This document shows positions 7,345-13,146 of a DNA stretch of 64,000 bases, one piece after another. Made by a program: the position numbers and the translations under genes. The DNA is from Meiothermus sp. (GTDB taxonomy: Bacteria; Deinococcota; Deinococci; Deinococcales; Thermaceae): assembly GCF_026004075.1 (NCBI RefSeq), contig NZ_BPIK01000001.1, forward strand, positions 2,086,041 through 2,150,040, written 5' to 3'. A model generated the notes under the pieces. It ran no database searches. It saw only the letters and a list, made by a program, of their open reading frames with translations, and was not told the origin of the DNA. Within the stretch, counting starts at the first letter, position 1, and each line of letters opens with the position of its first letter.

Positions 7345-8841
7345 CTAGCGCCGCCGGTAGCGCAGCACGTAGCTTTCCAGCCAGGCCACCAGCCCGTACA
7401 GGGCAATGCCCAGCACCACCGTAACCCCCACCGCAGCAAAGGCGTTGGCGTAGCGGAAGTTGAGCCGCTCGCTGTTGGCCAGGTAGCCCAAGCCGGCCCC
7501 GCCAAACACGAACTCGGCCACCACCGCCCCAATCAAGGCCAGCGAGACCGTGAGGCGCAGCCCCCCCAGCACCACTGGCAAAGCCCCGGGGAACTCGAGC
7601 TTGCTAAACACCCCCCAGGCACTCGCCCCCATGGTCTGGAAGACCTCGCGGTAGACCCGATCCACCTCCCGCACCCCCACCATGGTGCTCACCAGAACGG
7701 GAAAAATCGAGATGAGGATCACGGTGATGGTCTTGGAGCTAAGTCCATAACCGAACCAGATCACCAGCAAGGGCGCGATGATGATGGTGGGCACCGCCTG
7801 CAAAGCCACAATGAAAGGCGAAAACAACCGCTCCAGGGCCCGGCTGCGCCCCATGGCATACCCCAGCGGCAGCCCCAGCAAAAGCGAGCCAGCGATGCCT
7901 AAGAAGGCCACCTCGAGCGTCGCCCAGGCGCTTTGCAGCAGCAAGGAGAAGTTGGCCGCCATGGCCTGCCCCACCTGCGCCGGGGAGGGGACAAACAGCG
8001 GTATTCGTGCGGCCAGAAGGCTCCAGATCAGGAAAAACAGGCTACCCAGGCCCAGCACCCCGAAGATCTCCCAGGGCGGGCGCAGGGGCTTGGGCGGCGG
8101 CTCGATAAAGGTGGAGTCCACCACCCCCAGCCGCTCGCGTAGCTCGGCCTCGAGGCCGTCGGTAAAAGCGGTAATGCGGCCCTGGTCTTTGGTCTCCAGG
8201 ATGGTGTCAATCCGGCCTCCGGTCAGCACCACCACCCGGTCGGCCAGGTATACCGCCTCGCGGATGCTGTGGGTCACAAACAAAATGGTTTTGCCGGTGC
8301 GCTCGTGCAGTTGCTTGAGCTCGAGGTTGAAGCGCTCCCGCACCAACGCATCCAGCGCCGCAAAGGGCTCGTCCATCAGGAGCACCTCGGCCTCCTGGGC
8401 CAGGGCACGGGCGATGGCGACCCGGGCCTTCATCCCACCGGAAAGCTGGTGGGGGTAAAGCTTCAGGTAGGGCTTCATGCCCAGATGGGTCTCGATTTTT
8501 CCGCGCCCGGTGAGCTCGATGGGAAGCCGGATGTTCTGCTCCACGGTGCGCCAGGGCAACAACCGATAATCCTGGAAGACCATGGCTGGCTGCCCCGCCA
8601 CCTCCACCCGGCCCTGGTGGGCTTTTTGCAAACCCGCAATCACCCGCAAAAGGGTGCTCTTGCCCCCACCGGAAGGCCCGATGATGGCGATAAACTCGCC
8701 CTTCCGCACCTCGAGGTCTACGCCCTTGAGCACCTCGCGCCCATCGAACTGAACCCCGAGACCAGAAAGCCGAATGACCGTGGGGGGGCTTTCCAGCTCG
8801 AGATGCTCTTCTGGGGTGGACGGTAGATGCCGGGCCTGCAT
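7345..8841 (-). CDS. ribX: Riboflavin ABC transporter, fused ATPase and permease (RibX-like)
   Basis: The N-terminal half is an ABC ATPase of the nitrate/taurine type: Walker [11 protein letters not shown]-loop [10 protein letters not shown], signature [15 protein letters not shown], Walker [13 protein letters not shown]-loop FVTHS. The C-terminal half (from about residue 230) is a BPD-type permease with about six helices and an EAA-like loop ([21 protein letters not shown]). Usually these are two proteins. The riboflavin assignment comes from the divergent ribY with its FMN riboswitch. Start ATG at 8839-8841, because TATGCT lies exactly 6 nt upstream (leaderless); the frame is open further up to 8886. 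Confidence 0.8.
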
Positions 8842-8909
8842 AGATTCAGCATACCGTGCCCCGAAGGGCAGACTGCAAGCGGGCACTCTAAAAATTGGCC
8901 TGACCCACT

Positions 8910-9244: not shown

Positions 9245-9251
9245 AGTGAAG

Positions 9252-10229
9252 ATGCGCAAACTTGTACTGTTGCTAATGGTCTTGTTGTCGCTCGGAATGG
9301 CCCAAACCCAAAAGGTGCGGGTGGGTCTGGGTTATATCCCGGATGTGCAGTTTGCCCCGTTTTACGCAGCGGTGGTGGAGGGCCTGTATGCCAGACAGGG
9401 CCTCGAGGTCGAGTTTCAGCACGGCTTCGTGAGCGAGCTGTATCCCCTGCTGGCCCAGGGTCGGCTCGACTTTGTGGTAGGGGACGCCGAGGATGTAATC
9501 GCACTGCGCACGCAGAACCCCCAGGTCACCCCCTTCAAGTACGTGATGGCCATGTACCAGTCGGTGCCCAATGCCCTGTTTTCCCTGGCCGAGAAAAACA
9601 TCCGCTCGGTGCGCGACCTTAAGGGCAAAACCATCGGCATGCCGGGTATGTTTGGGGTCTCGCTAACCTCGCTCCAGGCCATCCTGCGGGCTGCCGGCCT
9701 CAAGGAAAGCGACGTCAAAATTCTGCAAATCGGCTTTACCCAGGCCGAGGCGGTGGTCTCGGGCCGGGTGGATGTGGCCATGGGTTTTATCAACAACGAG
9801 CCGGTCTTCCTGCGTGAAAAAGGCGTAAAACTCAACGTGATACCCGCCGGCCCCTACAACCGCAGCCCCGGCAACGGCGTCATCACCACCGACCGGGTGC
9901 TGGAAAACCCCGACCGCGTGCGCCGCTTTCTGGCCGCCTCGCAGGAGGGCCTGGCCCTGACCCTGCGCGAACCCCAGCGGGCTTTCGAGGCCGCCCGGCG
10001 CTTCGTACCCAACCTGGGCCAGGAGCGCATGGCCGTTTTGCAAGCCTCCATCCGGCTCTACGAGTCGCCCTATACCCGCCAGAATGGGCTGGGTTTCAGC
10101 AACCCCCAGGCCTGGGTGAGCAGCCTCAACCTGCTGAAATCCACCGGCCGGATCAAGACCGATCTGCCGGCCAGCACCTTCTACACCAACGAGTTTTTGC
10201 AGCCCGGCGTGCAGGCCCGGATGCCCTGA
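9252..10229 (+). CDS. ribY: Riboflavin-binding protein of ABC transporter (RibY, NMT1/THI5-like)
   Basis: Secreted solute-binding protein: signal peptide of about 18 residues (KLVLLLMVLLSLGMAQ), then an NMT1/THI5-type periplasmic binding fold (VGLGYIPDVQFAPFYAAVVE, LDFVVGDAED, DLKGKTIGMPGMFGVSLTS). Members of this family bind thiamin precursors or riboflavin; the FMN riboswitch directly upstream makes riboflavin the likely ligand. ATG at 9252 is chosen because GAGGAAG at 9240-9246 is correctly spaced; a GTG at 9246 would overlap that site. A strong terminator follows. Confidence 0.88.
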   Translation: MRKLVLLLMVLLSLGMAQTQKVRVGLGYIPDVQFAPFYAAVVEGLYARQGLEVEFQHGFVSELYPLLAQGRLDFVVGDAEDVIALRTQNPQVTPFKYVMAMYQSVPNALFSLAEKNIRSVRDLKGKTIGMPGMFGVSLTSLQAILRAAGLKESDVKILQIGFTQAEAVVSGRVDVAMGFINNEPVFLREKGVKLNVIPAGPYNRSPGNGVITTDRVLENPDRVRRFLAASQEGLALTLREPQRAFEAARRFVPNLGQERMAVLQASIRLYESPYTRQNGLGFSNPQAWVSSLNLLKSTGRIKTDLPASTFYTNEFLQPGVQARMP

Positions 10230-10249
10230 TCAAACAAGTCCTGGATCTG

Positions 10250-10278
10250 GGGCCTCTCCCAAGCGGGGAGGCCCTTTT
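10250..10278 (+). terminator. Intrinsic terminator of ribY
   Basis: GGGCCT (10250-10255) pairs with AGGCCC (10269-10274), extended inward by CTCC/GGGG pairs including one G-U, then TTTT. It lies 20 nt after the ribY stop. Confidence 0.75.
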
Positions 10279-10370
10279 AACGCAGCGCCGTGGGGGCCCA
10301 GTATTCGGCCAGGTCACTCGATAGCCCTCGGTTTCTTCTGGGTTTCCTGGGGGTGTGCTAGCATAAGGTC

Positions 10371-10403
10371 ATGCAGGGCTGTGTTCAGCTAGTTCAGACC
10401 TAA
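10371..10403 (+). CDS. Putative 10-residue leader peptide upstream of leuS
   Basis: ATG CAG GGC TGT GTT CAG CTA GTT CAG ACC TAA, encoding MQGCVQLVQT. TAGCAT at 10359-10364 stands 6 nt before the ATG, the same leaderless layout as many genes here. The only leucine codon is CTA at 10389-10391, which is rare in this CTC/CTG-rich genome. The stop codon touches GGGAG (10404-10408), which can pair with the 5' arm of the terminator that follows. The peptide itself probably has no function beyond sensing. Evidence is positional only. Confidence 0.45.
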   Translation: MQGCVQLVQT

Positions 10404-10425
10404 GGGAGACCCCTGATTAAGGAGG

Positions 10426-10451
10426 CTCCCCTACGCGTAGGGGAGTTTTTT
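10426..10451 (+). terminator. Intrinsic terminator in the leuS leader (possible attenuator)
   Basis: Perfect 8-bp stem CTCCCCTA (10426-10433) / TAGGGGAG (10438-10445), loop CGCG, followed by TTTTTT (10446-10451). ribY already has its own terminator about 170 nt upstream, so this one acts on a transcript that starts between them, ahead of leuS. Confidence 0.85.
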
Positions 10452-10518
10452 AGTTTAGGACAGTTCCCCTTTTGTCCGGGTCACAATACAATGACCCGTT
10501 GGAGACCGGAGAGGCGTC

Positions 10519-13146
<2,628 letters not shown>

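Follow-up and report, generated by a model that had tools for sequence, protein, structure and literature searches.

What is the role of a ten-codon open reading frame (ORF) and a perfect terminator hairpin immediately upstream of leuS, the gene for leucyl-tRNA synthetase? Both lie in the window, the 64,000-nucleotide stretch of Meiothermus DNA analysed here. A first-pass annotation had proposed that a ribosome waiting at the only leucine codon of this ORF, a rare CTA, leaves free an RNA segment that breaks the terminator, while a ribosome at the stop codon covers that segment. Our analysis indicates that leuS is very probably controlled by a ribosome-mediated transcription attenuator that senses charged Leu-tRNA via this CTA codon.

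Elements of the leuS leader

The elements of the leader are listed in Table 1. The ORF (ATG CAG GGC TGT GTT CAG CTA GTT CAG ACC TAA) begins and ends exactly, to the base, where the first-pass annotation had placed a leaderless reading frame behind TAGCAT and 6 nt. The single Leu codon CTA, the GGGAG at the stop and the CTCCC within a palindromic terminator were likewise present in the sequence. The palindrome (CTCCCCTACGCGTAGGGGAG) occupies 10426-10445 and is followed by T6 at 10446-10451. The downstream gene product is 79-98% identical to LeuS from other genomes of the genus.

Table 1. Positions of the leader elements and of leuS in the window.
Feature	Position	Strand	Basis
Extended -10 promoter TGC-TAGCAT of the putatively attenuated transcript (TAGCAT at 10359-10364, TG one base 5')	10356-10364	+	Sequence
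Spacer AAGGTC (6 nt)	Between -10 box and ATG (10371-10373)	+	Sequence
Predicted leaderless leader-peptide ORF, 10 codons, MQGCVQLVQT, TAA stop at 10401-10403	10371-10403	+	Sequence; comparable short ORFs before leuS in 75 of 88 genomes
Putative control codon CTA, rare Leu codon, codon 7 of 10, sole Leu codon of the ORF	10389-10391	+	Found in all leaders
Antiterminator 5' arm GGGAGACCCCT, starting with GGGAG (10404-10408), touching the stop	10404-10414	+	Predicted fold with 10420-10430
Antiterminator 3' arm AGGAGGCTCCC; its CTCCC (10426-10430) doubles as terminator 5' arm	10420-10430	+	Sequence; fold
Intrinsic terminator CTCCCCTA-CGCG-TAGGGGAG, then T6	10426-10451	+	Sequence; fold
Candidate second promoter, -10 box TACAAT, 3' of the terminator	10487-10492	+	Conserved in most Meiothermus
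leuS, leucyl-tRNA synthetase, 875 aa, presumed controlled gene	10519-13146	+	ORF; named records; LeuS identity

A generic promoter and terminator scan of the window missed both the leader promoter and the terminator and was therefore not relied on. Among the 72 leaders parsed as described below, the gap between the -10 box and the start codon was 6 nt in 61. The -10 box was TGN-extended in most Meiothermus and Calidithermus leaders, and nearly all leaders of families f2, f3 and f5 had a TTGACA-like -35 element 16-18 nt from the -10 box. Based on the 6-nt gap and this -35/-10 geometry, transcription is expected to start at the leader ATG or immediately beside it.

Several features lie upstream of the leader. 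A terminator-like hairpin on the + strand (GGGCCTCTCCC-AAGC-GGGGAGGCCC-TTTT, 10250-10278) is located just 3' of the upstream gene. An FMN riboswitch (RF00050, 8957-9106, + strand, 101.8 bits) is positioned shortly 5' of a substrate-binding-protein-like ORF (9246-10229), and an ABC-transporter-like ORF (7345-8886) lies on the strand opposite to the riboswitch.

Conservation of the leader and its CTA codon

To determine how widely this arrangement occurs, we analyzed the regions upstream of leuS in 88 genomes of five families (89 regions, one genome being represented twice); Deinococcus proper was not recognised among these genomes. Named leuS records covered Meiothermus taiwanensis, M. hypogaeus, M. 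granaticius, Calidithermus and several Thermus, and several of their contigs belong to sampled genomes. A strict parser, requiring a promoter, a short ORF with CTA and a terminator, was positive for 72 regions from 71 genomes. Since this parser demanded CTA, the scan was repeated without that requirement. It returned four further leaders, every one with CTA, and no plausible leader in the 88 genomes with a different Leu codon in its place. Note that the terminator after each parsed leader is built into the parser.

In total, 75 of the 88 genomes had a leader: 47 of 49 in the Thermaceae, 17 of 26 in f3, 6 of 8 in f4, 3 of 3 in f5 and 2 of 2 in f2. These include all 27 Thermus genomes and 15 of the 17 genomes of the Meiothermus genus. 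The first-pass annotation had made its proposal depend on conservation of the ORF and its CTA, and every leader found, in each of the five families, indeed contains CTA in frame. The leader is dispensable, since the parser scans found none in two genomes of the Meiothermus genus (L009 and L015) or in 11 of the 34 f3 and f4 genomes. In L006, L009 and L010 a tRNA gene, by eye a tRNA-Leu with a TAA anticodon, lies directly 5' of the leuS leader region; L009 itself has no leader.

That 75 of 88 genomes repeat this layout, down to the codon, argues against chance. This recurrence also bears on the reading that the terminator merely ends the upstream transcript and that the short ORF and its CTA are accidental. 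Intergenic terminators are common, and leuS has a candidate promoter of its own 3' of the terminator. However, a terminator-like hairpin at 10250-10278 already follows the upstream gene, which therefore does not need the one in the leader, and the promoter-ORF-CTA-terminator unit is kept in the 75 genomes despite differing sequence farther upstream. We therefore regard an accidental origin as highly improbable.

The association with leuS appears to be specific. A leader sequence model gave a single strong match per genome in 13 genomes of the Meiothermus genus, always 5' of leuS. Elsewhere than before leuS, the model gave three weak matches in Thermus, with E values of 2.6e-4 to 3.6e-4, which were taken to be chance GC-rich terminators. 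In the genome of the window, no comparable unit was found before four leuA-type genes or 11 further genes of the synthetase family. A degenerate DNA pattern searched for throughout the phylum lacked the stringency to be informative. Separately, a strong terminator hairpin (CGGCCCGC...GCGGGCGG-T8) was seen 69 nt before the matched domain of an HMGL-like gene (L185, G000:C2:515268); it could be another attenuator or the end of the upstream gene.

We next consider what is conserved within the ORF. The 57 distinct leader ORFs range from 7 to 27 codons, and both their length and their codons other than CTA vary freely. CTA makes up only 0-2% of the Leu codons within leuS genes. Its in-frame occurrences in the 57 ORFs number 80, against 4 in either of the other frames; 23 of the 80 are beyond the one demanded by the parser. 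Across the Thermaceae (35 distinct ORFs), a single codon occupied the CTA position, and 8-17 different codons the adjoining positions. A conserved DNA motif CTAG is ruled out as an explanation because all four bases occur immediately 3' of CTA.

The peptides are otherwise unrelated, this Leu being their only common residue. Arg immediately precedes it in 32 of the 57 distinct peptides (in Thermaceae and f3), compared to ~6% for Leu residues in LeuS. A leader peptide might thus act through its amino-acid sequence, by nascent-chain arrest as in erm and hflX leaders, rather than through tRNA charging, and Arg-Leu-Arg motifs are known from drug-sensing leaders (PMC8632094). Against such a mode of action, Arg is missing before Leu in f4, f5 and several Meiothermus, and what is under selection is CTA itself rather than leucine. 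The AGG codon of Thermus leaders belongs to a stem, although this stem accounts only partly for the Arg bias. Variation of the peptides apart from Leu favours codon sensing, and we consider nascent-chain arrest very unlikely.

Equally, the terminator might be governed by a riboswitch or by a tRNA-binding T-box, an element that serves synthetase genes in other phyla. No T-box or riboswitch was matched in Rfam at the gathering score or in a relaxed scan of the leader, the search for a T-box sequence or specifier stem extending to E values of 5. No Rfam family of any kind exceeded its curated score in 10230-10530; the best, NsiR1, reached 25 bits over the terminator, with 39 required. Moreover, the leader is too short for either element, and what is conserved in it is a reading frame. 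The likelihood of such control is negligible.

Predicted competing folds and degree of control

Codon sensing requires that the position of the ribosome decides between two structures. In the window, the first-pass annotation had paired GGGAG with CTCCC. This pairing was found, but the antiterminator is larger than claimed, extending over 10404-10430 (GGGAG-A-CCCCT...AGG-A-GG-CTCCC). Its folding energy is -15.5 kcal/mol (z -3.4; 0 of 200 shuffles were as stable), on par with the -15.0 kcal/mol of the core terminator. The two hairpins are predicted to be mutually exclusive, as they share the CTCCC arm. The entire leader of the window was also more stable than its shuffles (z -3.1).

A ribosome with a codon in its A site covers ~9 nt beyond that codon, an established toeprint distance. 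By this reckoning, a ribosome at CTA in the window would free the RNA from 10401 on, and one at the stop would cover it up to 10412. In most Thermaceae and f4 leaders, the antiterminator arm starts 9-12 nt past CTA, at or just past the stop. When a ribosome was placed at CTA in the 72 leaders, each taken as far as the terminator loop, the RNA 5' of the terminator 3' arm folded mostly with -14 to -22 kcal/mol in nearly all of them. With the ribosome at the stop, the same RNA folded weakly in nearly all, mostly with 0 to -7 kcal/mol. Both the presence of CTA in all leaders and the generality of this spacing support the attenuation logic originally proposed for the window alone.

Only 29 of the 72 leaders had an antiterminator pairing better than that of base-shuffled controls (p<=0.05), as expected for arms that are very GC-rich. 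The arms differ by family (GGGAG/CTCCC, GAGGGAGC/GCTCCCTC, GGGAAGGG/CCCTTCCC, GGGGAAGCC/GGCTTCCCC and CCGGGGAGATCGC/GCGATCTCCCCGG), with corresponding changes in the shared terminator arms. Within Meiothermus, covariation in a MAFFT alignment was uninformative: the stem arms hardly vary and thus provide no evidence.

These folds suggest the following mechanism. RNA polymerase would initiate at the leader ATG or right beside it, with a ribosome loading straight onto the leaderless 5' end. When the CUA-reading Leu-tRNA is charged, the ribosome would pass CTA, reach the stop and cover GGGAGACCC; the terminator could then form, and transcription would end before leuS. When leucine is scarce or LeuS activity low, so that this tRNA is uncharged, the ribosome would wait with CTA in its A site and its front edge ~9 nt past this codon. 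GGGAG would be free to pair with CTCCC as the latter is transcribed, the terminator would be blocked and leuS would be made. In f2, f3, f5 and Calidithermus, where the ORF runs through the arm, the moving ribosome would melt the arm instead. The leader thus has an ORF with a cognate codon, a terminator before the gene and an antiterminator predicted to be reachable only with the ribosome at CTA, the features of a ribosome-mediated attenuator. With control by a single codon, the response should be modest.

The predicted behaviour of an untranslated leader depends on a further helix. In Thermus, GGCCAGG, formed by the codons before CTA, pairs with CCTGGCC between the antiterminator arms; this protector helix was better than shuffles (p<=0.05) in 16 of 27 leaders. 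The same held for 2 of 2 Calidithermus leaders, and in the sister genus g3 the helix is changed on both sides (GCCCGG/CCGGGC). Thermus is thus modelled as a classical four-segment attenuator with a 7-8-codon peptide, which should terminate in the absence of a ribosome, being off by default. No protector helix better than shuffles was found in Meiothermus, including the window (0 of 15). For the window and the other Meiothermus leaders, which lack a conserved protector helix, the model is a three-segment switch, and here an untranslated leader should read through.

The degree of control may also differ. The first-pass annotation had noted a TACAAT box near 10486, after the terminator, as a possible main start of leuS. 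The box exists, at a slightly different position (10487-10492), and TACAAT, TAGAAT or TAAAAT is found ~33 nt before the leuS ATG in most Meiothermus, including the leader-free L015. A conserved TTCCYTTTT stretch often lies 5' of it (10464-10492 in the window). No downstream -10 box was found upstream of leuS in Calidithermus and Thermus. In Meiothermus, leuS mRNA free of this regulation may come from the second box, which would bypass the attenuator. The attenuated promoter of Meiothermus may thus supplement a steady supply; in Thermus it may be the only visible promoter. It is conceivable, though the less likely case, that the downstream promoter makes most of the leuS mRNA in this Meiothermus and that the attenuator, while real, has a small physiological effect. 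Conservation of the box, even without a leader, is consistent with this. However, the attenuator is still retained in 15 of 17 genomes of the Meiothermus genus, and Thermus, without a second box, keeps it in 27 of 27. The second box therefore qualifies the degree of control, not the existence of the attenuator.

Relation to known attenuation systems

Taken together, a leaderless leader of 7-10 codons with one obligatory CTA is likely to be a phylum-wide, ancestral sensor of tRNA charging for leuS in Thermus, Meiothermus and their relatives. If so, it would represent a minimal attenuator, needing no more than one codon, a single footprint length (~9 nt) and a pair of competing hairpins, and working at high temperature. 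With 7 codons and one control codon, as in the Thermus parvatiensis type of genome, it would apparently be about as small as such a sensor can be. Attenuation would be coupled with leaderless initiation, and in Thermus rare-codon sensing could be put to a sharp test. Thermus is genetically tractable, and its ribosome is structurally well known.

Ribosome-mediated attenuation is a known kind of control, and each ingredient has a precedent; the combination, the minimal size and the phylum-wide conservation were not found described. A survey from 2010 knew leader-peptide systems only in Proteobacteria and Actinobacteria (PMC2965389). Our search of the literature on attenuation or leuS leaders in Thermus and Deinococcus found no prior description, although an earlier mention may exist. 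Leader-peptide attenuation of a synthetase gene would thus extend to a deep bacterial branch for which we found none described.

The leuL leader of Salmonella and E. coli has an ordinary ribosome-binding site and a longer peptide. Like the leuS leader, it uses CUA for control, a codon chosen for leucine sensitivity. Exchange of CUA for CUG lowers the sensitivity of leuL to leucine (Carter et al. 1986, as cited in PMC1183508), setting a precedent for the use of CUA as the Leu control codon of greatest sensitivity. The leuL leader differs in controlling biosynthesis rather than a synthetase and in having several Leu codons, three CUA being replaced in that experiment.

The closest systems by gene are the leuS attenuators predicted in two Streptomyces species (PMC1262725). 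They share the gene, a leader ORF with Leu codons and the antiterminator and terminator hairpins; they belong to another phylum, and the passages describing them mention neither a leaderless start nor exclusive use of CTA. Leaderless leader ORFs in which translation speed senses an amino acid are found in mycobacteria, as polycysteine short ORFs (Canestrari et al. 2020, as cited in PMC9031893), and in C. diphtheriae, before ilvB (PMC5784534). Unlike the leuS leader of the window, these carry runs of control codons, for Cys or for Ile/Val/Leu, and the mycobacterial ORFs are described as regulating translation of downstream genes. Finally, uORFC-8-2 precedes the synthetase gene cysS in Rhodobacterales, where attenuation has been proposed (PMC8632094). 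It is similarly a leader ORF with cognate codons, but it belongs to another phylum and has Cys codons in tandem at positions 14 and 15.
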